43,665 nt of DNA, from positions 1 to 43,665 of the forward strand of contig DATKVX010000074.1 in NCBI GenBank assembly GCA_035529855.1, in the 5' to 3' direction. The translations under genes and the position numbers were made by a program. This DNA is from a bacterium (GTDB lineage: Bacteria > RBG-13-66-14 > B26-G2 > WVWN01). Below are positions 13,740-30,578 of this stretch, one piece after another. The notes under the pieces are model-generated. The model had not been told where the DNA came from. It saw nothing but the letters and a program-made list of their open reading frames with translations, and ran no database searches. Each line of letters starts with the position of its first letter. Position 1 is the stretch's first letter.

Positions 13740-15419
13740 TTATTCGATTTCTTTTTCGGTCAATAGGTTTCTGAATTTATCGTACGTAGCTATTTTCTTA
13801 AGGTTGCCGTCGACGTCGTACTCGGCGCGTATTGTTACGACGAAACCAAACGCGGGCGTCGGGTTCTCCTGTTCATCAAAGTACGAGATCTGTTCCATAT
13901 TACCGCGGGCGTCGTAGTAATATCTGGTAACGGCTACCGGCGAATGCGCCGGCGTTTTATACCGGCCCTCCGGACTAAGATAAGCTTCCTCGCAAAGGTT
14001 ACGGTCTTCGTCGTACTTAAAGCGTATTATTGCATATCCTCCATCCTCGATTTCTACCGGCCGGCCTTCGAGGTTAACGTAGCATTCCTCGGTTTTATAA
14101 CCGTAAATATTGTATTTCTTCCGTACAGCGGCGAACCCGCGGACTTCGGTTGGTTTACCCGCAAGGTCGAAATACCTGATTTCCGTTACGTTCCCGACTT
14201 CGTCGTATTTAAGTTTTAAAACAGCTACGCCGTCAAGGTCTTCCCTACAACAACGTTCCCCTTCGCAATCGCAATAGGTTTCCTCTACGTTGTTCCCGGC
14301 TTCGTCGAAAACCCTACGTATAATCGCGGCCCCTAAACCTCTACGCTTTTTAGGTTTCCCCTTCTCGTCGTAGTAACATTGTTCGATAACGTTACAGCGC
14401 GAATCGTAAGTAGAACGTACAACAGAAATACCCAATCCTTTATTTTTAGTCGGCCTATCTTTTTTATCGAAGTACGATACTTCGACCACGTTGCCGCGGT
14501 CGTCGTAAGTAGTCCTTTTTACGGCAACCTTTTCGTCTTCTCTTTCAGCAAGGTTACCTTTTTTATCGTAATATGACACCTCGACGATATTACCGTATTC
14601 GCCGTATTTGAACCGCTCGATCGCGTACCCTAAATCCCGTTCCCTCCTTATGAAGTAATCGGCGAGGTCGGGTTCTAATTCCGTGCCCGGAAGGTGTTTT
14701 AATTCCTCGTTTTCGCCTAGATACCTTGTTTCGACTGTATTTCCGGCGGCGTCGAACTCGTATTCTCTGACCGCTATACCGCTTTTATCCTCCTTAAGGT
14801 TTCCCTCGCGGTCGTGGTTCGAAACCCGGACGACGTTATTTTGGTTGTCGTAGACTCGACGCGTTTCGAAATAGCCGGTCTTGTCGGTAACTTGTTGGCC
14901 TAACCTGTTTATTCGAATATCCGCAACGCGGCGGCCTTGGTCGTCGATAGTCCACCGGTATTCGGCGACACCGAATTTATCGTTTATCAAAGAGCCGTCG
15001 GCGCCGAGGTTTTTTAACGCTACGCGGTTGCCCTCGTCGTCAAGCTTTAACCCGAACCCGAACGCGTCGTTATAACTCGGGACGGGTTGGCCTGCCGCAT
15101 TGTAGAAAGACCTCTTTTCGCTAGGTTTATAATACTCGAAAACGACGCACGCGGCGTTCGACTCTAAAAAGGAACCTTCCGCAGGTTTCCCGCCCATAAG
15201 GTAACCTACCTCGGTAACGCGTCCTTCCTCGTCATAAACGAAGCGATAGCAGTTGACCCACGTTGCTTCTTCTTCGGGCACCTCGTACTTCCCGACGATA
15301 TCGTGTTTCCCGTCCAGCATTACGTGCCGGAAGTACTTGGCCTTTTCATCGTCCGCCGCCGTCTGCGCCGCTATCGTGCACGCGAGGGCCAACGCCGTTA
15401 TTACCGTAACGCGGTTCAT
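13740..15419 (-). CDS. Exported protein built of about 15 YD-like repeats
   Basis: A 559-residue protein with a Sec-type signal peptide (MNRVTVITALALACTIAAQT). The rest is made of degenerate tandem units of 31-34 residues with the core Y-D-x-x-G-N-x-V-E-x-x-Y-x-D, e.g. YDDRGNVVEVSYFD, YDEVGNVTEIRYFD and YDARGNMEQISYFD. I count about 14-15 units, best conserved in the middle. The units resemble RHS/YD repeats but lack an RHS core or toxin domain. The gene is visibly AT-richer than its neighbours, and GGGAGG precedes the ATG. Its role is unknown; a periplasmic or surface beta-solenoid is likely from the repeats. Confidence 0.8.
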   Translation of the reverse strand: MNRVTVITALALACTIAAQTAADDEKAKYFRHVMLDGKHDIVGKYEVPEEEATWVNCYRFVYDEEGRVTEVGYLMGGKPAEGSFLESNAACVVFEYYKPSEKRSFYNAAGQPVPSYNDAFGFGLKLDDEGNRVALKNLGADGSLINDKFGVAEYRWTIDDQGRRVADIRINRLGQQVTDKTGYFETRRVYDNQNNVVRVSNHDREGNLKEDKSGIAVREYEFDAAGNTVETRYLGENEELKHLPGTELEPDLADYFIRRERDLGYAIERFKYGEYGNIVEVSYYDKKGNLAEREDEKVAVKRTTYDDRGNVVEVSYFDKKDRPTKNKGLGISVVRSTYDSRCNVIEQCYYDEKGKPKKRRGLGAAIIRRVFDEAGNNVEETYCDCEGERCCREDLDGVAVLKLKYDEVGNVTEIRYFDLAGKPTEVRGFAAVRKKYNIYGYKTEECYVNLEGRPVEIEDGGYAIIRFKYDEDRNLCEEAYLSPEGRYKTPAHSPVAVTRYYYDARGNMEQISYFDEQENPTPAFGFVVTIRAEYDVDGNLKKIATYDKFRNLLTEKEIE

Positions 15420-15776: not shown

Positions 15777-16628
15777 CTATTCGTAATCGTAAAACCCCTT
15801 CTTCGTCTTGCGGCCCAGGTAGCCGGCCAGGACCATCTTGCGCAGCAGCGGGCAGGGCCGGTACTTCGAGTCCGCGAAGCCGTCGTGCAGGACCTCCATG
15901 ATGTCGAGGCAGACGTCCAGGCCAATAAGGTCCGCCAGCTCCAGCGGCCCCATGGGGTGCGCCATGCCGAGCTTCATGACGCTGTCGATGGCCTCCTTGG
16001 TCGCGACGCCCTCGTAGAGCGCGAAGCACGCCTCGTTTATCATCGGCAGCAGCACGCGGTTGGATATGAAGCCGGGGAAGTCGTTGACCTCCACCGGCGT
16101 CTTGCCCACGGCCTTGGCCGCCTCCTCCGCCACGGCGTACGTCTCGTCCGACGTCGCGATGCCGCGGATGACCTCCACCAGTTTCATCATCGGCACCGGG
16201 TTCATGAAGTGCATGCCGATAACCTTATCCGGCCGCTTCGTGACGCCGGCGATCTCGGTTATCGGTATCGAGCTCGTGTTGGACGCCAGGATGGCTTCGG
16301 CCTTGCACTTCTCGTCCAGTTCCGTGAAAATCTTCTTCTTGAGGTCGCGGTCCTCGAAGACCGCTTCCACGACGAGGTCCGCGTCCTTGGCGTCGCCCAG
16401 GTCCGTCGATTTCTCGATGCGGGCCAACGCCGCGTCGGCGTCCTCCTGCGTTATCTTCTCCTTCTTGACCAGGCGCCCCAGGTTCTTGGTGATGACGCCG
16501 AGCGCCTTTTCGAGTAAATCCTTGGATTGGTCGATGAGCACGACGTCGAAACCGGCCTGCGCGAAGACGTGCGCGATGCCGTTGCCCATCGTCCCGCCGC
16601 CGATGACGGCGACTTTCTTTATAGTCAT
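15777..16628 (-). CDS. hbd: 3-hydroxybutyryl-CoA dehydrogenase
   Basis: A 283-residue NAD(P)-dependent dehydrogenase interconverting acetoacetyl-CoA and 3-hydroxybutyryl-CoA. The N-terminal Rossmann motif VAVIGGGTMGNGIAHVFAQA (about residues 6-25) binds the dinucleotide. The catalytic histidine lies in GMHFMNPVPMMKLVEVI and SNTSSIPITEI precedes it. The C-terminal dimerisation domain begins at DFPGFISNRVLLPMINEA and ends with the family signature LGRKTKKGFYDY. Length is typical (about 280). GGGAGG precedes the ATG. It is the last gene of the minus-strand acyl-CoA cluster, 31 bases after the thiolase. Confidence 0.95.
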   Translation of the reverse strand: MTIKKVAVIGGGTMGNGIAHVFAQAGFDVVLIDQSKDLLEKALGVITKNLGRLVKKEKITQEDADAALARIEKSTDLGDAKDADLVVEAVFEDRDLKKKIFTELDEKCKAEAILASNTSSIPITEIAGVTKRPDKVIGMHFMNPVPMMKLVEVIRGIATSDETYAVAEEAAKAVGKTPVEVNDFPGFISNRVLLPMINEACFALYEGVATKEAIDSVMKLGMAHPMGPLELADLIGLDVCLDIMEVLHDGFADSKYRPCPLLRKMVLAGYLGRKTKKGFYDYE

Positions 16629-16659: not shown

Positions 16660-17838
16660 TTAAATCGTTATGCTCATCGCGACCGCGCCGCCGCCGCCCA
16701 GGCAAGCGGTGGCCAGGCCGCGCTTGCCGCCGCGGTCCTTGAGCGCGTATACCAGCGTCGCCAGGATGCGCGCGCCCGAGGCGCCGATGGGATGCCCCAG
16801 CGCTACCGCGCCGCCGTTCACGTTGACGCGGTCCCAGTCCCAGCCGAGCCCTTTACCGTCCGCCAGGACCTGCGCGCTGAAGGCCTCGTTTATCTCGATG
16901 AGGTCGTAGTCGCCGATGGACTCGCCCGTCTTGGCCATCAACTTCTTGACGGCGTCCACCGGCGCGTAGAACAGCATCTTAGGTTCGACGTGGGCCGAGG
17001 CGTAGCCGACGATGGTGGCGTCCGGCGTAACGCCCAATTCCTTGGCCTTGGCCGCCGTCATTACCACCATCGCCGCGGCGCCGTCGTTGAGGCCCGGTGC
17101 GTTGCCCGGCGTGATAGTGCCGTCTTTGCTGAACGCCGGTTTGAGCTTGGCGAGTTTCTCGGCCGTCGTCTCCCGCGGCCCCTCGTCGGTGTCGAAGACG
17201 ATGGGGTCGCCCTTACGCTGGGGAACCTCGACCGGGACGATCTCGGCCTTGAACTTTCCTTCCTTTATCGCGGCCAGCGCCTTGGCCTGGCTGTTTGCGG
17301 CCCACTCGTCTTGCTCCTCGCGGCTGATGCCGGAGTTCTGCGCGGTAAAGTCGCCCAGGCAGCCCATGTGCTTATCCTCGAAGGCGCACCACAGGCCGTC
17401 ACGGATCATGCCGTCGACGAGCTCCATGTTACCCATCTTCTGGCCGGTTCGTCCTTTGTAAAAGTAGAACGGTACGTTGGACATCGACTCCAGGCCGCCG
17501 GCGACGACTATCTCCTCGTCGGCCGCCTTGATGGCCTGCGCCGCCATCGATACGGCCTTCGCGCCCGAGCCGCACACCTTGTTAATAGTTACGCAGTTCA
17601 CGGATGCGGGCAGGCCCGCGGCGATGGCCGCCTGGCGCGCCGGCGCCTGGCCCATCCCGGCCGAGACGACGTTGCCCATTATTACCTCGTCCACTTGCTC
17701 CGGTTTTATCCCGGCGCGCTCGACCGCGCCCCGAATCGCGACGCCGCCCAGCTGCCACGCCTGGAGCGGCGCGAGGGTCCCGAGGAATTTGCCGACCGCG
17801 GTACGGCAAACGCCCGCGATTACGATATCTTCCGCCAT
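16660..17838 (-). CDS. Acetyl-CoA acetyltransferase (thiolase)
   Basis: A 392-residue thiolase joining or cleaving acetoacetyl-CoA. All three active-site blocks are present: the nucleophilic cysteine in [15 protein letters not shown] (about residue 88), the histidine in [19 protein letters not shown], and the second cysteine in [15 protein letters not shown] near the C-terminus. Length is normal for the family. A perfect AAGGAGG site precedes the ATG at 17838. With the adjacent enoyl-CoA hydratase and 3-hydroxybutyryl-CoA dehydrogenase it forms the C4 part of beta-oxidation or its reverse. Confidence 0.95.
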
Positions 17839-17875: not shown

Positions 17876-18640
17876 CTACCACTTCGGCGCGCGTTTTTCC
17901 AGGAATGCCTTCATACCTTCGTTGCCCTCGCCGCCCTCGAAGCACTTGCCGAAGAGCTCCGCCTCCAGCTTGCAGCCTTCTTCGACGGTGAGGGTCAATC
18001 CGTCGTGCGCGGCCTTCTTCACCATCGCGAGCGACGTGGGGCCCTTCTTGGCGATAGCTTCGGCGAGCTCCATCACCTTCGGCAAAAGCTCCTCCGGCTC
18101 GAAGACGGCGTTGGCTAAGCCGAGCTCCAGCGCCCGGGCGCCGTCGATTTGCTCGCCCGTCGTCAGGAGGTACATCGCCTTACCCGGGCCGACGAGCTTC
18201 GGCAGCCGCTGCGTCCCGCCGAAGCCGGGCGTCACGCCCAGGCCGACCTCCGGCTGGCCCATCTTGGCCTTGGTGGAGGCGAACCGCATATCGCACGCCA
18301 GCGCGAGCTCCATGCCGCCGCCCAGCGCGAAACCGTTGACCGCGGCCACGCTTACGAAGTGGGCGCGCTCGAGCGCGCCGAAGACGCGTTGGCCGTTCTC
18401 GGCGAACGCCTTCGCCTGCGCGCCGTTCATTTCCGCCATGGCGGCGATATCCGCGCCGGCGACGAACGCCTTCCCCTCGCCGGTCACGACGACGACCAGG
18501 ACCTCTTTGTCGGCGTCGAGCTCCGTGATAATTTTCTCAAGCTCGGCTAAAACTCCGTCGTTGAGAGCGTTAAGCGCGTCGGGCCGGTTGATGGTGACGG
18601 TCGCGACGGCGCCCTCTTTGGTAACGTTGACCAGTGCCAT
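17876..18640 (-). CDS. Enoyl-CoA hydratase (crotonase family)
   Basis: A 254-residue crotonase-fold enzyme hydrating crotonyl-CoA to 3-hydroxybutyryl-CoA. It has the oxyanion-hole segment GKAFVAGADIAAMAEM (about residues 55-70), then VAAVNGFALGGGMELALACDMRFAS, and both expected catalytic glutamates appear: one in GGGMELALACD-type context (here as GMELA) and one in KMGQPEVGLGVTPGFGGTQRL. Both are at the usual positions (about 110 and 130). AGGGAG precedes the ATG. It is 40 bases downstream of the epimerase gene. Confidence 0.92.
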   Translation of the reverse strand: MALVNVTKEGAVATVTINRPDALNALNDGVLAELEKIITELDADKEVLVVVVTGEGKAFVAGADIAAMAEMNGAQAKAFAENGQRVFGALERAHFVSVAAVNGFALGGGMELALACDMRFASTKAKMGQPEVGLGVTPGFGGTQRLPKLVGPGKAMYLLTTGEQIDGARALELGLANAVFEPEELLPKVMELAEAIAKKGPTSLAMVKKAAHDGLTLTVEEGCKLEAELFGKCFEGGEGNEGMKAFLEKRAPKW

Positions 18641-18680: not shown

Positions 18681-19088
18681 TTAACCTTCCTGTAGCAACT
18701 CGATAAGCGCGCCGAACGTACTCGACGGCTTCATAAAGGTGACGCGCGCGCCGGGTGCGCCCTCGTACGGCGCGTCCGTAACGAACTCGTAGCCGTCGGC
18801 GCGGAGCGAGGCCGCCGCTTCGTCCACGTCGTCGACCTTGAAGCAGAGATGATGAACGCCGGGGCCGCGGTTTTCGATGAATTTGGATATCGGGTCTCCG
18901 CCCAGGCCCTCGAGCAGTTCTATTTTTACGCCGCCGGCATCGAAGAAGGCGAGCTTAAGGCCGCGTTCCGCCAGGACCTCCTCGCCGCCGAGCGTTAGGC
19001 CGAGCGCCTCCCCGTAAAACCGCCTCGCCTCCTCTATGCTCTTGACGGCGACGCCGACGTGCTCGAGCTTCGCGCCCTTTACCGTCAC
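18681..19088 (-). CDS. mce: Methylmalonyl-CoA epimerase
   Basis: A 135-residue protein starting at GTG 19088 in a GTGA overlap with the stop of the upstream mutase. The vicinal-oxygen-chelate fold is clear: [18 protein letters not shown] opens the first module and [19 protein letters not shown] the second, supplying the metal-binding histidines; FGALIELLQ carries the C-terminal glutamate ligand. It interconverts (S)- and (R)-methylmalonyl-CoA, linking the carboxylase product to the mutase substrate. Length is typical (about 135-150). Overlap with the mutase gene makes translational coupling likely. Confidence 0.93.
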
Positions 19089-20698
19089 GGCCGCCCCTTC
19101 GTCTTGTCGTACTCGCCCCACGCCTCGCGCAGCGCGTCGGATGTTTCGCCCACCGTCGCCGCGGCCTCGACGCAGGCGATAGTAGGTTCCATCAGCGGCG
19201 CGCCGTCGGCCGCCGCGGCTTCCCGCAGCGCCGCCAGCGCCTCCTCGCGCCGGGCGTCGTCGCGGCGTTTGCGGTAGGCGGCGAGCTCTTTCGCACGGGC
19301 GCGCTCGAGCGCCGGCTCGAGGCGAAGCGTCTCGAACGGCGGCGCGCCCCCGGTTACGTATTCGTTCACGCCGACGACGACGCGCTTTTTCTCTTCGACG
19401 TCCTTTTGGTATCGGTACGCGCTCGCGGCTATTTCGTCGGCGAAGTAGCCGCTCTCCACCGCCCGCAGCGCGCCCCCCATAGCGTCGATTTCTCGGAGAT
19501 ACTCTTCGACGCGCGCCTCGAGTTCGCGCGTCAGCGCCTCCACGTAGTACGAGCCGCCCAGGGGGTCCGCGGTGTCGGCGACGCCGCTCTCGTGGGCGAT
19601 TATCTGCTGCGTGCGGAGGGCGATGAGCGCCGACTCCTCGGAGGGGAGCGCCAGCGCCTCGTCGCGCGAGTTGGTGTGAAGCGACTGCGTCCCGCCGAGG
19701 ACCGCGGCCAGCGCCTGCAGGGCGACGCGCACGACGTTGTTCGCCGGTTCCTGGGCCGTGAGGGTGCAGCCGGCGGTCTGCGTGTGGAAGCGCAGCTTCA
19801 TCGACGCCGGGTCCCGGGCGCCGAAGCGCTCCGCCATAAGCCGGCACCATATCCGCCGCGCCGCGCGGAACTTCGCGACCTCTTCCAACAGGTTGTTGTG
19901 CGCGCCGAAGAAGAAGCTGAGCCGCGGCGCGAAGTCGTCCACGGCCAGGCCCGCGGCCAGCGCCGCCTCGACGTACGCGACGGCGTCCGCGAACGTGAAC
20001 GCTACCTCCTGGGCCGCGGTGGCGCCGGCCTCGCGGATGTGATACCCCGATATGGAGATGCTGTTCCAGGAGGGCATCTCGGCCGCGCAGTAGCGGATGA
20101 GGTCCGTCGCCAGCCGCAGCGACGGCGCCGGCGGGTAGATGTAGTTGCCCCGGGCGAAGAACTCCTTGAGGATGTCGTTCTGGACCGTTCCGCGCAGCTT
20201 CGCCGGGTCCGCGCCCTGCCGCTTCGCGAGGGCGACGTACATCGCCAGCAGCGCGGCCGCGGTGGCGTTTATGGTCATCGACGTCGAGACGTCGGCCAGC
20301 GGGATGCCGTCGAAGAGCGCGGCCAGGTCGTCGAGCGTGGATACGGCGACGCCCGTCCGGCCCACCTCTCCCCGGGCGAGCGCCGCGTCCGAGTCGTAGC
20401 CGCACTGCGTCGGCAGGTCGAACGCCACCGAGAGGCCGGTCTGGCCCTGCGACAACAGGTAGCGGTAGCGCTTGTTGGTCTCCGCCGCCGTGGCGTAGCC
20501 GGCGTACTGGCGCATGGTCCACAGCCGGCCGCGGTACATGTCGGCGTAGACGCCCCGGGTGAAGGGCGGCGCGCCCGGCTCGCCCAGCTCAAGGCCGTAG
20601 TCGACCGGCGCGTCCTCCGGCTTGTATACCGCCTTGACCTCTATCCCGGAAGTCGCCGCGACGTCGCGTTCGGCGCTCTCTTTATTTTTTCGCGTCAT
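19085..20698 (-). CDS. Methylmalonyl-CoA mutase-type large subunit (no B12 domain)
   Basis: A 537-residue catalytic (TIM-barrel) subunit of an adenosylcobalamin-dependent acyl-CoA mutase; the B12-binding domain is absent and must come from a separate subunit. Specificity residues match methylmalonyl-CoA mutase: Tyr65 in [11 protein letters not shown] (human Tyr110/bacterial Tyr89) and Arg183 in [17 protein letters not shown] (human Arg228/bacterial Arg207, which binds the substrate carboxylate). The conserved histidine lies in [13 protein letters not shown]. It overlaps the biotin-carrier gene by 4 bases (ATGA) and the epimerase gene by 4. It is predicted to make succinyl-CoA from (R)-methylmalonyl-CoA. 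Confidence 0.92.
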
Positions 20699-21210
20699 TC
20701 AATAACGACCAGCACGTCGCCCAGGGCGACGCCGCGGCCTTTTTCTATTTTAACTTCTTTCACGACGCCGCCGCGGGGTGCGCGCATCAGGTTCTCCATC
20801 TTCATGGCCTCTATGACGCACAGGCCCTGGCCCTCGGCGACCTCGTCGCCCGGCGCGACCATCACGTCCAGCACGACCGCCGGCATGGGCGCCTTCACTT
20901 CGGCCGCGGCCTGTTCGTCCGCGCCCGCCGCCCCCTTCAGCTCGCGGATGCGCCGCTGGCGCTCGTCCTCCACCGACACGGCGAGGGTGTGGCCGGCGAC
21001 GAAGACGACGTAGCCGCCGCGCTCGTCGCGCCGCACCCACAGCTCCGCGGAGTTACCGTCGAGTATCAGCGAGTAGATGGCGTCGCGCGCCACTTCGTGG
21101 TAGTCGACGTCGCAACGCTTGCCGTCGACGCTTACGGCCGGCGACGCCCCTTCGCCCTCAACCGTGAGTTCGTACGTGCGGCTGCCTATGGTGGTCCGGT
21201 AGCGCATCAA
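20695..21210 (-). CDS. Biotin carboxyl carrier protein of an acyl-CoA carboxylase
   Basis: A 171-residue protein. The C-terminal ~75 residues form a biotinyl domain with the biotinylation motif [12 protein letters not shown] (target lysine between the methionines). The preceding ~95 residues form a beta-rich linker domain ([34 protein letters not shown]) like the BT region of propionyl-CoA carboxylase alpha chains. It is thus the tail of a PccA-type protein encoded separately from its biotin carboxylase. It overlaps the biotin carboxylase gene by 4 bases and the mutase by 4, so the order carboxylase-carrier-mutase-epimerase is tightly coupled. Confidence 0.92.
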
Positions 21211-22706
21211 TCGCCCACGCCCTCGCGGCGGGCGGCCAACCGCCAGGCGTCGGTCGCGGGGCCGGCGCCGTCCGGGCTAACGGGGGCCGCCGGGCCGCGG
21301 AGGTGGTTGAGAATGGTGCACAGCACCGCCGCCGCCTTCTCCTGGCGTTCGGCGTGAGAGGCCTCGGGCCGGAAATATTTTTCCACGAAAGAGGTGTCGA
21401 ATTCGCCCTTGCGGAACGCTTCGGACGCCATAACCCAGCGGTGGAACGGAATCGTCGTCGCGACGCCGTCGAGGACGAACTCGTTGAGCGCGCGGGTCAT
21501 CCGCTCGATGGCGAGCGGCCGGTCCTCCGCCCACACCACGAGTTTGGCGATGAGCGGGTCGTAGTATATGGGCACCTCGTACCCCTGGGCAACGCCGCCG
21601 TCGAAGCGGACGCCCGGGCCGGCCGGGATGCGGAGCCGCGATATCGTCCCCGTCGCCGGGTAGAAGTTGTTGTCGGGGTCCTCGGCGGAGATGCGGCACT
21701 CGATGGCGGCGCCGCGGGGCCGGACGTCTTCCTGGGCGAACCGAAGCCGCTCGCCGGCGGCGACGCGTAGCTGTTCCTTTACGAGGTCTACGCCCGTCAC
21801 GAGCTCCGTCACCGGGTGCTCCACCTGCAGCCGCGCGTTCACCTCCAGGAAGTAGAAGTCGCGGCCTGCGTCGAGCAGGAACTCGATCGTGCCGGCGTTG
21901 GTATAGTTTGCGGCGCGGGCCGCCTTGAGTGCGGCCTCCGCCATCCGCGCGCGCAACTCATCGTCCAGGACGGGCGACGGCGACTCCTCCACCAGCTTCT
22001 GGTGGCGGCGCTGGATGGAGCACTCGCGCTCGTGGAGGTGGACGACGTTGCCGTGGGCGTCGGCGAGGATTTGAAACTCGACGTGGCGCGGCCCCGCGAG
22101 GCACTTCTCGACGTATACCGCGTCGTCGCCGAAGGCGGAGCGCGCTTCGCTCCGGGCGTGTTTGAGGAGTTCGGCGAAGTCGTCGGCGCGGGCGCATACG
22201 CGCATGCCCTTGCCGCCGCCGCCGGCCGCGGCCTTTATCATCACCGGCCAGCCTATTTCCGCCGCCGCGTTCGCTATATCCTCGTCCCCGCGCAGCGCGG
22301 GGTCGGAGCCCGGTATCACCGGGATGCCGGCCGCGGCCATCGTCGCCCGGGCGCCCTGCTTATCGCCGGCGGCCCGCAGCGTCGCGGGCGACGGCCCCAC
22401 GAATACGAGGCCCGCGTCTTCGCACGCCGCGGCGAAGGCCGCGTTCTCCGCCAGGAAGCCGTACCCGGGGTGCACCGCTTCCGCGCCGGCGCGCCGCGCG
22501 ACGTCGATTATCTTATCTATATTTAAATAAGATTCGCTCGCCGGCGCCGGGCCGACGTTGTAGACCTCGTCGGCGTAGCGGACGTGCGGCGCGGGCCGGT
22601 CCGCGTCGGAATATATTCCCACGCTCCGGATGCCGAGCTCGCGGCACGCGCGCATCACGCGTACGGCTATTTCGCCGCGGTTGGCTACGAGGACTTTTTT
22701 AAACAT
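21207..22706 (-). CDS. accC: Biotin carboxylase subunit of acyl-CoA (propionyl/acetyl-CoA) carboxylase
   Basis: A 499-residue ATP-grasp enzyme carboxylating biotin on the carrier protein with bicarbonate and ATP. It opens with KKVLVANRGEIAVRVMRACRE, has the ATP-binding glycine loop KAAAGGGGKGMRV (about residues 160-172), and the catalytic segment EVNARLQVEHPVTELVTGVD with the essential arginine. About 45 residues extend beyond the usual ~450-residue subunit, a probable linker. Position between carboxyltransferase and carrier genes suggests propionyl-CoA carboxylation. The 5' end overlaps the methyltransferase gene by 8 bases. Confidence 0.93.
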   Translation of the reverse strand: MFKKVLVANRGEIAVRVMRACRELGIRSVGIYSDADRPAPHVRYADEVYNVGPAPASESYLNIDKIIDVARRAGAEAVHPGYGFLAENAAFAAACEDAGLVFVGPSPATLRAAGDKQGARATMAAAGIPVIPGSDPALRGDEDIANAAAEIGWPVMIKAAAGGGGKGMRVCARADDFAELLKHARSEARSAFGDDAVYVEKCLAGPRHVEFQILADAHGNVVHLHERECSIQRRHQKLVEESPSPVLDDELRARMAEAALKAARAANYTNAGTIEFLLDAGRDFYFLEVNARLQVEHPVTELVTGVDLVKEQLRVAAGERLRFAQEDVRPRGAAIECRISAEDPDNNFYPATGTISRLRIPAGPGVRFDGGVAQGYEVPIYYDPLIAKLVVWAEDRPLAIERMTRALNEFVLDGVATTIPFHRWVMASEAFRKGEFDTSFVEKYFRPEASHAERQEKAAAVLCTILNHLRGPAAPVSPDGAGPATDAWRLAARREGVGD

Positions 22707-23268
22707 TTGACGTCTTGGGTTTGGCGAGGCGCAGGTAGAACCAGCCGCCGCGGTCGTCCTCCACCTCGACTTGCAGGCCGGCGGCCGCGGCGAAGTCGCG
22801 GACCATCGCGAGGTCCTGCTCGCGGCCTTCGCCCCGCACGCCGTAGCCCGTCCGCACGGCCTCGCCCCCCGGCAGCGTCACCGTGACGGCGACGCCGAAG
22901 ACGTCGTCGCCCGGGGGGACCGGCGTTCCCCAGAGGTGCAGACTGCCGCCGGGTTTTAATACGCGCGCGGCCTCGGCGAAGAGCGCCCGCTTGGCGTCGG
23001 CGCCCTTCACGTACATCAGGCCGAAGAAGACGGTGACGTGCTCGAAGGTGTTGTCGACGAAGTTCGTGCGCGTGGCGTCGCCCACCAGGAAGATGGTGCG
23101 GGGCGGGCACTTGCGCCGGGCCTCGGTGATCTCCGATATCTGCGAGTCGACGCCGATGACGCGGCCCGGGTACGCCCGGGCGATTATGCCCTCGCCGCCC
23201 GCGCACAGGTCGAGGATGACGGGCATGGGCTCGAGCGGCCCGAGGCTGATTTCGACGCCGTCGCTCAT
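22699..23268 (-). CDS. Class I SAM-dependent methyltransferase of unknown substrate
   Basis: A 189-residue soluble methyltransferase-fold protein. Motif I is VILDLCAGGEGIIARAYPG (about residues 17-35), followed by VIGVDSQ for ribose binding, GDATRTNFVDNTFEHVTVFFG, and ARVLKPGGSLHLWG. It lies between the small membrane-protein gene (4-base overlap) and biotin carboxylase (8-base overlap), so it is translated as part of the carboxylase operon, although no methylation step is known in propionyl-CoA metabolism. It may modify a carboxylase component or a small metabolite; neither can be decided from sequence. Confidence 0.82.
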   Translation of the reverse strand: MSDGVEISLGPLEPMPVILDLCAGGEGIIARAYPGRVIGVDSQISEITEARRKCPPRTIFLVGDATRTNFVDNTFEHVTVFFGLMYVKGADAKRALFAEAARVLKPGGSLHLWGTPVPPGDDVFGVAVTVTLPGGEAVRTGYGVRGEGREQDLAMVRDFAAAAGLQVEVEDDRGGWFYLRLAKPKTSNV

Positions 23269-23477
23269 TCCCCGGGCGCTTCCTTCTCGGCGGGAGGCTC
23301 GCCCGCCAGCCGGCGCAGCGTTTCGGTTTGGCGCTGCAGCTCGGCGAGGACCTTCTTCATTTGCACGGCGCAGTAGAGGGCCGCGCCGGCCGCGGCGAAC
23401 AGCGCCACCAGGCCGAAGAACTGGAAGACGTACGCTACCAAGGTGAAAATAAGTAAATCGTTCACAGTTTCCACCAT
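23265..23477 (-). CDS. Small membrane protein with C-terminal coiled coil
   Basis: A 70-residue protein with one long hydrophobic segment (about residues 8-38, LLIFTLVAYVFQFFGLVALF onward), then a short helical heptad-like stretch (VQMKKVLAELQRQTETLRRL) and a Pro/Glu-rich end. It begins 3 bases after the stop of the carboxyltransferase and overlaps the methyltransferase by 4 bases, so it is clearly part of the operon. Its size and layout recall the gamma/delta subunits of Na+-pumping decarboxylases (OadG/MmdD), but no decarboxylase beta subunit is present, so that link is speculative. A membrane tether for the carboxylase is a possible role. Confidence 0.65.
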   Translation of the reverse strand: MVETVNDLLIFTLVAYVFQFFGLVALFAAAGAALYCAVQMKKVLAELQRQTETLRRLAGEPPAEKEAPGE

Positions 23478-23479
23478 TA

Positions 23480-25030
23480 TTACAACGGTATATTCCCGTG
23501 CTTCTTGGGCGGGTTATGGTCGCGCTTGTTGCGGAGCATCTCGAGCGCCTGGATGATGCGAGGCCGCGTCTCCCGGGGCATGATGACCTCGTCCACGTAG
23601 CCCAGCTCCGCGGCGATGTAGGGGTTCGCGAATTTCTCGCGGAACTCGGCGACGAGCTTATCGCGCAGCTTAGCCGGGTCCTCCGCCGCCGCCAGCTCGC
23701 GCCGGTGCAAAATGTTCACCGCGCCCTCGGGGCCCATCACCGCGATTTGCGCGGTGGGCCAGGCGTAGACCGTGTCGCCGCGCATGTGCTTGGTGGAGGT
23801 GACGGCGTACGCGCCGCCGTACGACTTGCGGACGATGACGTGGACCTTGGGGGCCGTGGCCTCGCCGTACGCGTACAACAGCATCGCGCCGTGCTTGATG
23901 ACGCCGCCGTACTCTTGCGCCGTCCCGGGGAGGAAGCCCGGCACGTCGGAGAAGGTGAGGATGGGGATGTTGAAGGCGTCGCAGAAGCGGATGAAGCGCG
24001 CGGACTTGCAGGCCGAGTCGATGTCCAGGCAGCCGGCCAGGACCAGCGGCTGGTGGGCGTTGATGCCGACGGTCCGGCCCGCCATACGCGCGAAACCGCA
24101 TATCATGTTGGGCGCGAAGTCGCGGTGAATTTCGAAGAAGTCGCCGTTGTCGACGACGCGCCGGATGACGTCCTTCATATCGTAGGGCTTGTTGGGCGAG
24201 TCGGGGAGGAGGGCGTCGAGCTCGGCGTCGGCTCGAGCCGGGTCGTCGCCGGTCTCGACGTACGGCGGCTCGTCGAGGTTGTTCTGCGGCAGGAACGAGA
24301 GGAGGCGGCGAATTCCCTGCAGGCACGCCACCTCGTCGGCGGCGACGACGTGACAGCAGCCGGACTTGGTGGCGTGGACGCGGGCGCCGCCCAGCTCCTC
24401 GAAGGTTACCTCCTCGTTCATCACGGTCTTGATGACGTCGGGCCCGGTGAGGAACATGTACGACGTGCCTTCGACCATGAAGGTGAAGTCCATTACGGCG
24501 GGGGAATAGACGGCGCCGCCGGCGCACGGGCCCATAATGGCGGCTATTTGCGGCACGACGCCGGAGGCGAGGGTATTGCGCAAAAAGAAGTCGGAGTAGC
24601 CGGCCAGCGAGTCGACGCCGTCCTGGATGCGCGCGCCGCCGGAGTCGTTGAGGCCCACGATGGGCGCGCCGACGCGCAGGGCGTGGTCGCATACCTTGCA
24701 GATCTTCTCGCCGTGAGCTTTGGAGAGGGTGCCGCCGAAGGAGGTGAAATCCTGGGCGAAGACGAACGTGAGGCGGCCGTTGACGCGGCCGTAGCCGGTT
24801 ACCACCGCGTCGCCCGGGACGCGCCGCTCCGCCATGCCGAAGTCGTGACAGCGGTGGACGACGGTGGCGTCGAGCTCGCGGAAGGTGCCCTCGTCCAGCA
24901 GGATGTCGAGGCGCTCGCGCGCGGTGAGCTTGCCGGCGTCGTGCTGCTTGGCGACGCGCTCCGGGCCGCCGCCCTCCAGGGCCAGGGCGCGTACGCGGGC
25001 TAAACGTTCGTAGAGGTCCTCGTTGGCCAT
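23480..25030 (-). CDS. pccB: Acyl-CoA carboxylase carboxyltransferase subunit (propionyl-CoA carboxylase beta type)
   Basis: A 516-residue carboxyltransferase moving CO2 from biotin to an acyl-CoA, probably propionyl-CoA. Crotonase-like halves are both present: the first with [20 protein letters not shown] and [18 protein letters not shown] (acyl-CoA site), the second with [23 protein letters not shown] and [19 protein letters not shown] (biotin site). Length is typical of PccB/MmdA (about 510-520). A GGGGG-type site precedes ATG 25030. It lies 22 bases downstream of the B12-subunit gene. The same sequence class also includes methylmalonyl-CoA decarboxylase alpha chains, but the accompanying biotin carboxylase favours a carboxylase. 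Confidence 0.93.
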
Positions 25031-25052
25031 CGACCCCCTTCGCCCCTGCGAC

Positions 25053-25457
25053 TCAGTTCTCGGAGGGGACGGCTTCTTTTATGTACGCTACGATGTCGTC
25101 GGTGGTGGTGCCGGGCGTGAAGAGGCGGCCTATGCCGACCTTCTGCAGCTCGGCAATATCGTCCTCGGGGAGGATGCCGCCGCCGGTGATGAGGACGTGC
25201 TCGGCGCCCTTCTCGCGCAAAAGCTCCCGGACGCGGGGGAACATCGTCATGTGCGCGCCGGATAGGATGGACAGGCCGACGACGTCGACGTCCTCCTGCA
25301 GCGCCGCCTCGACGATGGCCTCCGGCGTCTGGTGCAGGCCCGTGTAGATGACCTCCATGCCGGCGTCCCGCAGCGCCCGCGCCACGACTTTGGCGCCGCG
25401 GTCGTGGCCGTCGAGGCCCGGCTTCGCCACCAACACGCGTATTCGTTTATGCGTCAT
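25053..25457 (-). CDS. B12-binding small subunit of acyl-CoA mutase
   Basis: A 134-residue cobalamin-binding domain from ATG 25457, preceded by GAGGTGG. The lower-ligand motif DGHDRG (residues about 16-21) follows RVLVAKPGL, and the nucleotide-tail segments [13 protein letters not shown] and [12 protein letters not shown] are intact. This is the C-terminal half of a standard methylmalonyl-CoA mutase encoded as a free subunit. It directly follows the isobutyryl-type large subunit, yet it is the only B12 subunit visible for two large subunits in this window, so it may serve both. Confidence 0.93.
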
Positions 25458-25478
25458 AAGCCACCTCGCTGTGCACCG

Positions 25479-25496
25479 GGCCGGCTCGAGCCGGCC
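25479..25496. repeat. 18-bp perfect palindrome centred on CTCGAG at a stop codon
   Basis: GGCCGGCTC followed by GAGCCGGCC spans the short gap between the B12 subunit and the mutase gene and touches the last base of the mutase TAG. It has no T tract and would form a 9-bp stem with no loop, so it is closer to a repetitive or binding element than to a terminator. Confidence 0.65.
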
Positions 25497-27163
25497 TAGT
25501 ATATCGGCGTCTCCTTGTACTCGTCGAACTCCTCGCGCAATACGTCCAGCGTCTCGCCCAGCGTGGCGTACGCCCGGGCGCAGGCCAGGAAGTGGGGCAT
25601 GAGGTTGGTCCCGTCGCGCGCGGCCTGTCGCATACCCCCGAGCGCCTTCTTCCACTCGGCCTCCGAGCGCTCCGCGCGTACCTTCGCCAGCCGCTTATTC
25701 TGGTGCTCCTCGACCGCCGGGTCGACCTTGAGGAGGTCGATCTCGATTTTTTCGTCGTCGAGTTTGAACTCGTTCACGCCCACCTGGACGCGCTTGCCCT
25801 GCTCGATCTTCTTCTGGTAATCGTACGCGGCGTCGGCTATTTCCTTCTGGAAGAAACCTTTCTCGATGGCCTTGAGCACGCCGCCCAGCGCCTCTATCTT
25901 GTCGAAGTACTCCTCGGCCTCCTCCTCCATTTTATTAGTCAGATACTCGACGTAGTAGGAACCGGCGAGGGGGTCGATGACGTTGGCGACGCCGGACTCG
26001 TAGGCGATTACCTGCTGCGTGCGGAGGGCGATGAGGACCGCCTTCTCGGAGGGCAGCGCCATCGTCTCGTCCATGGAGTTGGTGTGGAGCGACTGCGTAC
26101 CGCCCAGTACGCCGGCCAGCGCCTCGATGGCGGTCCGGACGATATTGTTCTCCGGCTGCTGCGCCGTGAGGCTGCATCCCGCCGTCTGCGTGTGGAAGCG
26201 CATGAGCCAGGACCGCGGGTCGCGGGCCTTATACTTGTTCTTCATCCGCTTGGCCCAGATCCGGCGGGCGGCGCGGTACTTCGCTATCTCCTCGAAGAAG
26301 TCGAGGTGGGCGTTGAAGAAGTGGGAGAGGCGCGGCGCGAAAGTGTCCACGTCCATGCCGGCGGCGATGCCGGCCTCGACGTACGCGAAGCCGTCGGCCA
26401 GCGTGAAGGCGAGCTCCTGGGCCGCGGTCGAGCCGGCCTCGCGGATGTGGTATCCCGAGATGGAGATGGTGTTCCACTTCGGGACTTCGGCGGCGCAGTA
26501 GGCCATGATGTCGGTGATGATGCGCATCGACGGCTCGGGGGGATATATCCACGTTTTCTGGGCGATGTATTCCTTGAGGATGTCGTTCTGGATGGTACCG
26601 CGTAATATTCTCGAGTCGACGCCCTGCTTCTCGCCCACGGCGACGTAGTACGCCAGGAGGAGCGCCGCGGGGGCGTTGATCGTCATCGACGTCGAGACCT
26701 CGGCCAGCGGGATGCCGTCGAAGAGGACCTCCATATCGGCCAGCGACGATATCGCGACGCCGCACTTGCCCACCTCGCCGCGCGCGTATGGGTGGTCGGA
26801 GTCGCGGCCCATAATCGTGGGGAGGTCGAACGCGACGGAGAGGCCCGTCTGGCCGTGGCCCAGGAGGTATTTGTAGCGGCCGTTGGTATCCTCCGCCGAG
26901 CCGAAGCCGGAGAACTGGCGCATGGTCCACAGCCGGCCGCGGTACATATTGGCCTGGACGCCGCGGGTGTAGGGGTACTCGCCCGGGACGCCGAGGTCTC
27001 GCTCGTAGTCGAGGCCGGCGACGTCGGCGGGGGTATAGAGCGGCGCCACCGGCAGGCCGCTCACGGTTTCGAACAGGGCGTCCCGCTCCCGGCATTCGCC
27101 GGCCTTCTTATCCCAGGCCGCCTTGGCCCGGGCGATTTTCTCGAGTTCTTTTTTATCGAACAT
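25496..27163 (-). CDS. icmA: Isobutyryl-CoA mutase-type large subunit
   Basis: A 555-residue catalytic subunit of a B12-dependent acyl-CoA mutase, again without a B12 domain. The two substrate-specificity positions differ from the other paralogue: Phe84 in [11 protein letters not shown] replaces tyrosine, and Gln202 in [17 protein letters not shown] replaces the carboxylate-binding arginine. Phe and Gln at these positions are the signature of isobutyryl-CoA mutase (butyryl/isobutyryl-CoA interconversion). The conserved [13 protein letters not shown] histidine is intact. The ribosome binding site before ATG 27163 is weak. The assignment is by residues only, not by overall phylogeny, and many related proteins are annotated simply as methylmalonyl-CoA mutase. 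Confidence 0.85.
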
Positions 27164-27203: not shown

Positions 27204-27890
27204 TTACCGGGTAACCGGGAGGAATAATTTGTGTATAAGCCCTTTCAGCGGGTGCGACCGCGGGATACCCAGGTACCGGTCTTGCTTGCGCAACGCCTCA
27301 CGCCAAGTGGCGGCTTTTTTCGGGCCGCGTGTGCCGCCAGGGAAAACGTCGCCCACGAAGTAGACCAGTATCAACCTCGACGGCACGCCGTGGACGTTCA
27401 GGAAATACAGGGTCGCTAACCTGTTGGCATATTGAAAAAATTTCTCGGTCCACACGGCTTTTTCTCGCGCTCCTAGGTATTCCTTGGTGTCGTCCAGGGC
27501 CCGGTTTATTTGGCGCCGACTCGCCTCCGATTTCGCTTGGCACGTGGATTCCAACTCATTCACGTGCGCTTTCGCTTCCACCAGCAAAAGGTCCTTACCG
27601 CCGCTTCGGTATAACCACCCTACGGCATCCCAATTAGGTTTCCCCCCGGGCGGCCAGAACTCCCGCCACTTGGAGCGCACCTTTCGGTACTTCGGCCCCG
27701 CGAGGAAATCTAATCCTTTGAGTTCGGCGTCCGGTTGTTTCCGAATCCCGGTATAGTCGAAGTCCAACCATTCGACGCGGGTACCAGCGCCGGCCGCTTT
27801 GATTATTCCTCGATTCAGTTCTTCGCGGTGGCGGCCCAAATATCGCAACAGGTGCCACTCGCTGCCGTACCCGTAACCGATTTTGCCCAT
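27204..27890 (-). CDS. Hypothetical protein with a PD-(D/E)XK nuclease-like motif
   Basis: A 228-residue soluble protein from ATG 27890 behind AAGGGAGG. A candidate nuclease site is visible: Glu11 in an N-terminal helix (GSEWHLLRYLGRH), Asp88 in NWDAVGWLY, and Glu105-x-Lys107 in DLLLVEAKAHVNE, with the spacing of the PD-(D/E)XK fold. The rest is unlike the surrounding metabolic enzymes and codon use is less GC-rich. It is unrelated to the acyl-CoA pathway and is probably a recent insertion between the acyl-CoA dehydrogenase and mutase genes. Nuclease activity is a prediction from motif only; I recognise no closer family. Confidence 0.7.
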   Translation of the reverse strand: MGKIGYGYGSEWHLLRYLGRHREELNRGIIKAAGAGTRVEWLDFDYTGIRKQPDAELKGLDFLAGPKYRKVRSKWREFWPPGGKPNWDAVGWLYRSGGKDLLLVEAKAHVNELESTCQAKSEASRRQINRALDDTKEYLGAREKAVWTEKFFQYANRLATLYFLNVHGVPSRLILVYFVGDVFPGGTRGPKKAATWREALRKQDRYLGIPRSHPLKGLIHKLFLPVTR

Positions 27891-27915: not shown

Positions 27916-29067
27916 TTACCGCAGCAGATGGCCCGCTATCACTAACCGCTGCACCTCGGAGGTGCCCTCGTAAATTTCGGTGATGCGCTGGTCGCGGTAG
28001 AGCTGCTCGACGCGCGAGAAGTCGCCGACGTAGCCGTAGCCGGCGTGAATCTGCATGCAGCGGTCGACGCAGAAGTTCGCGGCCTCGGAGGCGAAGAGCT
28101 TGGCCTGTGCGGCCTCCAGGCCCATCGGCTCGCCCGCGGCTTCCTTCATAGCCGCTTTGTAGGTGAGGAGCCGCGCCGCCTCGAGGCGGACCGACATATC
28201 GGCGATCATCCACTGGATGGCCTGCAGCTTGGCGATGGGCGCGCCGAATTGCTCGCGCTCTTTGGCGTAGGCCGAGGCGAGGTCGAAGGCGCGCTGGCAG
28301 ATGCCGACGGATTGGGCGGCGACGCCGATGCGGGCGCCGTCGAGCGTGTTCATCGTGACGCGGAAACCCTTACCGTGCTCACCCAGGAGGTTTTCCTTCG
28401 GGATTTTTACGTCTTTGAAATAGAGGCGCGCCGTGGTCGAGGCGCGTATCCCCATCTTGTATTTTAAAATTTCGGTGGAATAGCCCGGGTCGTCGGGGTT
28501 GTCGAAGATGAGGGCCGAGACCTTGAACTTGTCCGGTTCCTCGGCGGTGTTGGCCTTGCAGATGACGACGACGACGTCGGCCACGTTGCCGGAGGTGATG
28601 AAGATCTTCTCGCCGTTGAGGACGTAGTGGTCGCCGTCGAGGACGGCGGTGGCCTGCTGCGCCGCGGCGTCGGAGCCGGCGCCGGGCTCGGTGAGCGCGA
28701 AGGCGCCGTGGATTTCGCCCTTGTTCATCTTCGGCAGGTACTTCTTCTTCTGCTCGTCGGTGCCGAACTTCTCGAGGGGATACGAGGCCAGCACCTGCAC
28801 GGCCATGACGATGCCGAGCGCCGCGTCGGCGTACGATATCTCTTCGATAAGCGTGGCGTAGAGCAGCTTGTTTTTACCCTGGCCGCCGTACGCCGGGTCC
28901 GACGGGTAGCCCAGGTAGCCGGCCTTGGCCATGGCTTTGAAAATATCCTCCGGGAACTCGGGTGGCCTCCGGTCGAGTTCCTGGCTCACGGCGTTAATGT
29001 GTTTCTCGGCGAAAGCGCGAGCCTTTTCGCGTACTTCTTCCTGCGCGGGGTCCCAGTTCCAGGCCAT
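27916..29067 (-). CDS. Acyl-CoA dehydrogenase (short-chain/butyryl-CoA type)
   Basis: A 383-residue FAD enzyme oxidising an acyl-CoA at C2-C3. Both family signatures are present: GAFALTEPGAGSDAAAQQ (about residues 127-144) and the C-terminal QIHAGYGYVGDFSRVEQLYRD. The catalytic glutamate is expected in RITEIYEGTSEVQRLVIA. Length and order are standard. GGAGG precedes the ATG. With thiolase, dehydrogenase and hydratase in the same cluster it completes the butyryl-CoA/acetyl-CoA cycle; isobutyryl-CoA is an alternative substrate given the neighbouring mutase. No electron-transfer flavoprotein genes are in the window. Confidence 0.93.
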   Translation of the reverse strand: MAWNWDPAQEEVREKARAFAEKHINAVSQELDRRPPEFPEDIFKAMAKAGYLGYPSDPAYGGQGKNKLLYATLIEEISYADAALGIVMAVQVLASYPLEKFGTDEQKKKYLPKMNKGEIHGAFALTEPGAGSDAAAQQATAVLDGDHYVLNGEKIFITSGNVADVVVVICKANTAEEPDKFKVSALIFDNPDDPGYSTEILKYKMGIRASTTARLYFKDVKIPKENLLGEHGKGFRVTMNTLDGARIGVAAQSVGICQRAFDLASAYAKEREQFGAPIAKLQAIQWMIADMSVRLEAARLLTYKAAMKEAAGEPMGLEAAQAKLFASEAANFCVDRCMQIHAGYGYVGDFSRVEQLYRDQRITEIYEGTSEVQRLVIAGHLLR

Positions 29068-29085: not shown

Positions 29086-30054
29086 TTACATTGCGCGAGA
29101 GACTTCTTTAAAGAGCCGGCTCGAAGCTTCGTAGGGTGTGAGTCGCCCCTGCTGTACCTCGGCCGTTAACAGCTCGAGTAAACTTTCGTAGGCCGGCGTG
29201 GCGGCGCACACGCACTTGAATTCGTACGCGAGCAGCTCCTCGAGCTGGCGTTGCGCGCGGCCGCGGCGGCGCAACGTTAAACCGCCCGACTCCTCGAGGT
29301 GCGAGCGATGCGTCGCCACCGCCTCCAGTATATCGTCGACGCCGCGGCCCTCGGTCGCGACCGCCATGACGACCGGCGGCCGCCAGCCGTCCTCCGGCTT
29401 CAGCCCGAGCGTCACTTGCAGCTCGCGCGCCATCTGCTCGGCGCCCTCGCGGTCCGCCTTGTTGACCACCAGCACGTCGGCTATTTCCATAAGGCCGGCC
29501 TTCATCGCCTGGACCGCGTCCCCCGACTCCGGGACGACGACCACCACCGTCGTGTCGGCGGAGTTGGCGACGTCGAGCTCGCTCTGGCCCACGCCCACCG
29601 TCTCGATGAGCACGAGGTCGAGGCCGAAGGCGTCCATCGTCAGCGCGACTTCGCCGGTCGCTTTGGCCAGGCCTCCCAGGCTGCCCCGCGTCGCCATACT
29701 CCGGATAAAGACGCGCTCGTTGCCGGCGAGGTCGTGCATGCGGATGCGGTCGCCCAACAGCGCGCCGCCGGTGAAGGGGCTGGTCGGGTCCACCGCGACG
29801 ATGCCCACGTCGCGCCCGGCGGCGGCGTAACGCTCCGCCAGGTGCGACACCAACGTCGACTTGCCGGCCCCCGGCGGCCCGGTGATGCCTACCAGGTACG
29901 CATTACCGGCGCGGCCGTATATTTCGCGCAGGAAGTCGCGGTAGCCGTCGGCCTCGTCCTCGACCGCGGATATCGCCCGCGCCAGCGCCAGCCGGTCGCC
30001 GGCTACGAAGCGCTCCAGGAAGTCGGCCGCCGTGACTACGCCGGCGCCCCTCAA
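29086..30054 (-). CDS. meaB: MeaB-type GTPase chaperone of acyl-CoA mutase
   Basis: A 322-residue G3E-family GTPase that gates cofactor loading and protects B12-dependent mutases. It has P-loop GITGPPGAGKSTLVSHL (about residues 54-70), DPTSPFTGGALLGDRIRM, switch-region ETVGVGQSE, and base-recognition VVNKADREGAEQM. The C-terminal helical dimerisation arm is present. The start is TTG 30054, overlapping the TGA of the cobO-type gene (TTGA), so the two are coupled. It could serve one or both mutase large subunits of this cluster. Confidence 0.93.
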   Translation of the reverse strand: MRGAGVVTAADFLERFVAGDRLALARAISAVEDEADGYRDFLREIYGRAGNAYLVGITGPPGAGKSTLVSHLAERYAAAGRDVGIVAVDPTSPFTGGALLGDRIRMHDLAGNERVFIRSMATRGSLGGLAKATGEVALTMDAFGLDLVLIETVGVGQSELDVANSADTTVVVVVPESGDAVQAMKAGLMEIADVLVVNKADREGAEQMARELQVTLGLKPEDGWRPPVVMAVATEGRGVDDILEAVATHRSHLEESGGLTLRRRGRAQRQLEELLAYEFKCVCAATPAYESLLELLTAEVQQGRLTPYEASSRLFKEVSRAM

Positions 30055-30578
30055 AACTCTATCCCTTTCCGCGCCGGTACGCCGATGCGATAATGGTGCT
30101 TTATCTCCTTCACTTCGCTTACCAGGTCCGCGGCCTCGGCGAATTCGGCCGGCGCGCCCCGGCCCGTCAGGACGAGCTCCATCTCGGCCGGCCTGGCCGC
30201 GACGATGTCCAGTATCTCTTTCGCTTCTACCAGGCCGTAGTCGGCGGCGACGTTCACCTCGTCGAGGACGACGAGGTCGTACGCGTTCTCGGCGACTACC
30301 TGCCGCGCCCGGGCCAGCGCCTCCCGCGCCAGCGCGACGTCCTCCGCCGCCGGCTCGTCGCGGTCGACGAAGGTCTCGCGGCCGTACTGTTCAACGTCGA
30401 ACCCCTCGAGTTTCGCCGCGGCCTCCAGCTCGCCGTAGTTTATCCGGCCCTTCATGAACTGGATGACGAGCACGCGCGCGCCGTGGCCCCAGGCGCGCAG
30501 CGCCAGGCCGAGGGCGGCGGTGGTCTTGCCCTTGCCGTCGCCGGTGTAAACTTGAACCGTTCCTTGCGAGCCGAGCAT
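30051..30578 (-). CDS. cobO: Cob(I)alamin adenosyltransferase (CobO/BtuR type)
   Basis: A 175-residue P-loop protein making adenosylcobalamin from cob(I)alamin or corrinoid precursor and ATP. The unusual Walker A QVYTGDGKGKTTAALGLALRA (residues about 9-29) and the Walker B-like DLVVLDEVNVAADYGLV are diagnostic of CobO/BtuR. Length is normal. It supplies the cofactor of the mutases that follow. ATG 30578 lacks a clear ribosome binding site; a structured ~90-base leader and a strong promoter lie upstream. It is the first gene of the minus-strand cluster. Confidence 0.95.
   Translation of the reverse strand: MLGSQGTVQVYTGDGKGKTTAALGLALRAWGHGARVLVIQFMKGRINYGELEAAAKLEGFDVEQYGRETFVDRDEPAAEDVALAREALARARQVVAENAYDLVVLDEVNVAADYGLVEAKEILDIVAARPAEMELVLTGRGAPAEFAEAADLVSEVKEIKHHYRIGVPARKGIEF

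Follow-up and report, generated by a model that had tools for sequence, protein, structure and literature searches.

The well-studied adenosylcobalamin (AdoCbl)-dependent acyl-CoA mutases either carry their B12 domain in the catalytic chain or rely on a dedicated small subunit. In fused methylmalonyl-CoA mutase (MCM; human MUT, E. coli ScpA and Rhizobium BhbA) and in the fused isobutyryl-CoA mutase (ICM) IcmF, this domain cannot be shared because it is part of the same chain. Separate small subunits are known from the ICM of the isobutyrate-isomerising Syntrophothermus lipocalidus, whose cluster comprises two mutase genes, an adenosyltransferase gene and meaB and groups with sulfate reducers (PMC5017805), from the MCM of Ilyobacter, Moorella and Desulfofundulus, and from HcmA/HcmB of Methylibium and Aquincola (PDB 4R3U). 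Here we analyse a gene cluster in a 43,665-nucleotide stretch of DNA (contig DATKVX010000074.1; hereafter the window) from a Coatesbacteria genome (G000; 2,622,481 bases in 135 contigs, 97.39% complete), which encodes two mutase large subunits, designated A and B, and a single small subunit. Judging from sequence comparisons, these two AdoCbl-dependent acyl-CoA mutases of one operon-like cluster probably use one and the same exchangeable B12 subunit, and we regard its sharing by A and B as well supported. The three genes in question are:

25496-27163, minus strand: large subunit A, isobutyryl-CoA mutase type (Phe84, Gln202), 555 amino acids; F/Q clade (see below), operon of the same kind as Slip_0757-0760 (PMC5017805)
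25053-25457, minus strand: mutase B12-binding small subunit, the sole one, 134 amino acids, with KxxxDxHxxG motif; proposed partner of both large subunits
19085-20698, minus strand: large subunit B, methylmalonyl-CoA mutase type (Tyr65, Arg183), 537 amino acids; Y/R clade

The gene set of CobO, MeaB, A and small subunit, as well as the clade of A, resembles the S. lipocalidus IcmA/IcmB cluster Slip_0757-0760. Unlike the latter, the cluster in the window runs on into a predicted module from propionyl-CoA to succinyl-CoA, containing a mutase without a small subunit of its own. This mutase, B, is similar to the free-subunit MCM of Ilyobacter, Moorella and Desulfofundulus in having Tyr/Arg and in adjoining epimerase and carboxyltransferase genes, but in those organisms the small-subunit gene directly follows the large-subunit gene. 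HcmA/HcmB, the closest solved structure to A and B, likewise combines a separate small subunit with MeaB and an adenosyltransferase, whereas HcmA has Ile/Gln at the specificity sites and forms a separate branch. Fused MCM and IcmF share catalytic fold and reaction families with A and B and differ from them in the B12 domain within the chain. We found no report of a shared mutase small subunit in the open literature (subscription journals were mostly not covered); the enzymes are of known kinds, and we have not found the conserved two-to-one arrangement described in the literature searched, relative to which it is new.

A and B are 59% identical across 535 residues and both match PF01642 and TIGR00641 over their full length, with a B12 domain in neither. 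Reading the translations directly, we found Tyr65 and Arg183 in B and Phe84 and Gln202 in A, as the first-pass annotation had reported, and both pairs align to the specificity positions of human MCM, P. shermanii MCM and HcmA. Phe/Gln (F/Q) is kept in 76 of the 80 closest relatives of A. Among loci fetched from genomes with two large subunits and one small subunit (2:1 genomes), all 37 F/Q proteins retain this pair and all 40 Tyr/Arg (Y/R) proteins retain theirs, and because of this conservation we conclude that the residue pairs are not due to chance. The Tyr/Arg rule for MCM is in literature use after Jost et al. 2015, as cited in PMC7238569. Taken with phylogeny and neighbouring genes, the residues suggest that A interconverts isobutyryl-CoA and butyryl-CoA and that B converts methylmalonyl-CoA to succinyl-CoA.

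In phylogenetic trees, the F/Q proteins formed one clade with Shimodaira-Hasegawa-like approximate likelihood ratio test (SH-aLRT) support of 100 in the first tree and 95 in the second. This clade, which includes proteins of syntrophs and of sulfate-reducing Bacillota, takes in HcmA (Ile/Gln) and leaves out all Y/R proteins. A lies within it among ICM-type proteins and apart from MCM (Streptomyces IcmA was not among the tree sequences), and not with the Y/R proteins of methylmalonyl-CoA operons, in agreement with the isobutyryl-CoA mutase pair that the first-pass annotation had recognised in it. Given tree and operon context, we reject the reading of A as a misread MCM. B falls into the Y/R group with B proteins of Eisenbacteria (support 99 in the first tree). 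The branching of HcmA inside the F/Q clade, and the ability of IcmF to convert pivalyl- and isovaleryl-CoA as well (PMC9974510), leave a small chance that A mainly acts on another branched acyl-CoA, such as pivalyl-, isovaleryl- or 2-hydroxyisobutyryl-CoA, instead of isobutyryl-CoA, which would be compatible with a shared subunit. The first specificity site of A is Phe and not Ile, however, and its relatives occur in butyrate beta-oxidation operons and in the cluster kind of the isobutyrate degrader.

The small-subunit gene starts 38 nucleotides downstream of A, so that a separate B12 subunit is encoded with A, and its 134-amino-acid product matches TIGR00640 with 174.7 bits (cut-off 57.45). 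Genome-wide, exactly two genes match PF01642 and one matches TIGR00640 above cut-off. A PF02310 scan returned 13 B12-domain proteins, the mutase small subunit among them; the 12 others are MetH, one two-domain corrinoid-type protein and ten proteins of the radical-SAM/B12 type (seven identified by Pfam, three judged by eye). With the other matches identified, the two scans led us to reject a hidden second small subunit, and the statement of the first-pass annotation that one free B12-binding subunit is visible beside two large subunits without a B12 domain holds for the whole genome. B thus has no B12 domain in its chain, no adjacent small subunit and no dedicated one genome-wide, and we therefore class it as an MCM-type large subunit and not as a complete MCM; an own B12 domain or dedicated small subunit is usual for MCM, although not essential for the reaction. 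The B gene overlaps the epimerase gene and the gene of the biotin carboxyl carrier protein (BCCP) by 4 nucleotides each, and its genomic link to epimerase and propionyl-CoA carboxylase subunits is kept in related loci.

The same ratio recurs in other genomes. Exactly one small subunit is present in seven of seven Coatesbacteria genomes with both complete large subunits, which are one F/Q and one Y/R protein; two of the seven are 100% complete (G039, G048) and two are single contigs (G040, G042). Four Coatesbacteria genomes have neither large nor small subunit. Of three fragmentary Coatesbacteria assemblies (G044, G045, G047), one holds a small subunit alone, one a single large and one small subunit, and the third two large subunits together with part of a small subunit that borders on a stretch of N. 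Among 15 Eisenbacteria genomes of at least 90% completeness, mutases occur in ten, with one small subunit in each of the ten (two large subunits were counted allowing for split genes, and G054 was too fragmented for a safe count of large subunits); five contain neither component. The 2:1 ratio was also found in Gemmatimonadota (G008), KSB1 (G033), Zixibacteria (G020, G029), Ignavibacteriota/Bacteroidota/Chlorobiota (G062, G063, G065, G068-G070, G072, G073), Neomarinimicrobiota and kin (G074-G076, G079, G080, G082-G086, G088), Chloroflexota (G078, G097) and Acidobacteriota (G102, G104), amounting to about 45 genomes from roughly nine phyla as counted from genome tables. G071 encodes a fused mutase and one free small subunit.

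In Bacillota and some others, by contrast, large and small subunits are equal in number, with two or three of each, and every large-subunit gene is directly followed by the gene of its own small subunit. There, F/Q genes often lie near beta-oxidation genes and Y/R genes near epimerase and carboxyltransferase genes. Free-standing Y/R proteins thus usually have a small subunit dedicated to them, and the lack of one in 2:1 genomes calls for an explanation. The recurring ratio and this contrast lend support to the shared B12 subunit, which the first-pass annotation had put forward as a conjecture.

Gene location also speaks for a shared small subunit and bears on how A and B might relate to each other. 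On the single-contig chromosomes G008 and G042, about 1.2 Mb separate B from A and from the small-subunit gene. In Neomarinimicrobiota, Bacteroidota and one Chloroflexota genome, neither large-subunit gene shares a locus with the small-subunit gene. In the Chloroflexota metagenome-assembled genome (MAG) G078, meaB and the small-subunit gene occur together on a contig that carries no large-subunit gene (L202, G078:C673), a pair that resembles a cofactor-handling module. A mixed dimer of A and B that carries the small subunit, in place of two enzymes exchanging it, might be suggested by their 59% identity over 535 residues, by the joint presence of their genes in several loci of different phyla and by the actinobacterial MCM, in which two related large chains form a heterodimer (structure 1REQ). 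We consider such a dimer highly improbable, given that the A and B genes are often far apart and that separate small subunits accompany the two large subunits in Bacillota. Moreover, one chain of the known MCM heterodimer is degenerate, unlike A and B, of which A retains the residues of an active ICM and B those of an active MCM.

The small subunits themselves are in line with exchange between A and B. Only a single column separates those of F/Q from those of Y/R large subunits at the 85% level, and the small subunits of 2:1 genomes are equidistant from both kinds, with mean identities of 64% and 63%, which makes exchange plausible. In a poorly resolved small-subunit tree (129 columns), most of those from 2:1 genomes group together with support 95, and an origin from the ICM kind cannot be separated from one from the MCM kind.

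Several observations weigh against a shared subunit. In the larger tree, 37 of 40 Y/R proteins of 2:1 genomes cluster together, with a support of only 65. No columns were found at which A and B became alike in 2:1 genomes. We also considered convergence of A and B at ten columns that distinguish the F/Q from the Y/R proteins of 2:2 genomes and rejected it, as the Y/R state persists in 86% for B and the F/Q state in 69% for A. A hydrophobic C-terminal tail (ETPIY-like) is present in A and absent from B. Furthermore, most 2:1 genomes are MAGs, the single-contig Coatesbacteria genomes (G040, G042) are rated only 78% and 89% complete, and binding of B to the small subunit is deduced from comparison. 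Finally, no small subunit was found in three genomes with large subunits (G066, G077, G087), which indicates that genes are sometimes missed. If genes can be missed, and with an assembly in 135 contigs and a small-subunit gene that adjoins A, the small subunit might serve A only, and B might have another, diverged or unassembled B12 protein as its partner. This would require the same absence to recur independently in about 45 genomes, some of them rated 100% complete, and the other 12 of the 13 PF02310 proteins are of the MetH, radical-SAM/B12 and two-domain corrinoid types; we therefore hold a partner for A alone to be improbable and favour the shared small subunit.

The further genes of the cluster, listed in transcription order and predicted from their family matches, are:

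30051-30578, minus strand: CobO-type cob(I)alamin adenosyltransferase, overlapping meaB by 4 nucleotides (TIGR00708 above cut-off)
29086-30054, minus strand: MeaB GTPase, B12 loading and repair chaperone (TIGR00750 above cut-off)
27916-29067, minus strand: acyl-CoA dehydrogenase, between meaB and A (PF00441/PF02771/PF02770)
23480-25030, minus strand: acyl-CoA (propionyl/methylmalonyl) carboxyltransferase subunit (PF01039; TIGR01117 below its cut-off)
21207-22706, minus strand: biotin carboxylase subunit (PF00289/PF02786/PF02785)
20695-21210, minus strand: BCCP, the biotin carboxyl carrier subunit (PF00364)
18681-19088, minus strand: methylmalonyl-CoA epimerase, overlapping the end of B (TIGR03081 above cut-off)
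17876-18640, minus strand: enoyl-CoA hydratase (crotonase; PF00378)
16660-17838, minus strand: acetyl-CoA acetyltransferase (thiolase; PF00108/PF02803)
15777-16628, minus strand: 3-hydroxyacyl-CoA dehydrogenase (PF02737/PF00725)

Transcription runs from CobO, MeaB and acyl-CoA dehydrogenase through a 228-amino-acid open reading frame (ORF) to A and the small subunit, then through carboxyltransferase, a 70-amino-acid membrane ORF, an S-adenosylmethionine (SAM)-dependent methyltransferase and biotin carboxylase to BCCP, B, epimerase, crotonase, thiolase and 3-hydroxyacyl-CoA dehydrogenase. Overlaps of 4-8 nucleotides between several neighbours are operon-like. The nearest loci, from Coatesbacteria and from MAGs labelled 'Zixiibacteriota', are 90-92% identical. 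L005, L006 and L007 belong to the same genus as the window; the whole order is kept in L005 and L006, and the fragment L009 is arranged as in the window. L008 keeps the order from acyl-CoA dehydrogenase on, and CobO and MeaB were not seen there. In loci from other lineages (L011, L016, L025), A, small subunit, carboxylase, Y/R large subunit and epimerase are kept. An AccA-like protein, read by eye, is encoded apart at the far end of the window, so that the biotin subunits of the cluster are plausibly for propionyl-CoA.

The 228-amino-acid ORF (27204-27890, minus strand) between acyl-CoA dehydrogenase and A has no Pfam or NCBIfam match. An LLVEAKA stretch in it, judged by eye only, suggests a nuclease-like fold. 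There is no space for the ORF at this place in L005-L007, and it seems to have entered the operon recently. The 70-amino-acid ORF (23262-23478, minus strand), hydrophobic in its N-terminal half, fills the gap between carboxyltransferase and methyltransferase and may represent a small membrane subunit of a carboxylase or decarboxylase. The methyltransferase gene (22699-23268, minus strand) lies within the carboxylase genes and is present in L005 and not seen in L006. The perfect palindrome GGCCGGCTCGAGCCGGCC (25458-25498, at the stop codon of A) was tried as a conserved hairpin between A and the small subunit and dropped; it is near-intact in L005 and not kept in L006-L008. Next to the cluster, in a stretch of lower GC content (52%), 13740-15419 (minus strand) encodes a 559-amino-acid protein of degenerate RHS-like repeats.

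In the mechanism that we propose, CobO would make AdoCbl and MeaB would help to load it onto the small subunit (25053-25457). The loaded subunit would then join either A, for the interconversion of isobutyryl-CoA and butyryl-CoA, or B, for that of methylmalonyl-CoA and succinyl-CoA; the substrates, the direction of the reactions and the physical sharing are all predicted. The product of A could be broken down to two acetyl-CoA by acyl-CoA dehydrogenase, crotonase, 3-hydroxyacyl-CoA dehydrogenase and thiolase, and the substrate of B could arise from propionyl-CoA via biotin carboxylase and epimerase, so that isobutyryl-CoA and propionyl-CoA, derived for instance from valine and isoleucine, would both be processed by the cluster. 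MeaB is known to contact mainly the B12 domain (PMC9974510), and loading requires this domain to move off the substrate domain (PMC10481361), which suggests that one MeaB could load a shared free subunit. A search of 14 Coatesbacteria genomes returned no methylmalonate-semialdehyde dehydrogenase above the TIGR01722 cut-off; this group may therefore lack the usual route for valine carbon, a result in keeping with an ICM route, although no proof of it.

On balance, we lean towards the view that one interchangeable B12 subunit, old and widespread across about nine phyla, couples isobutyrate/valine and propionate flux through the amount of loaded subunit. If A and B do share it, specificity would reside wholly in the large subunit and the B12-loaded small subunit would act as a cofactor carrier for both enzymes. 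Competition for it between two carbon pathways would follow, as the first-pass annotation had anticipated when it pointed out MeaB and CobO in the same cluster, and many uncultured lineages would be misjudged by annotation that assumes a small subunit for every mutase.

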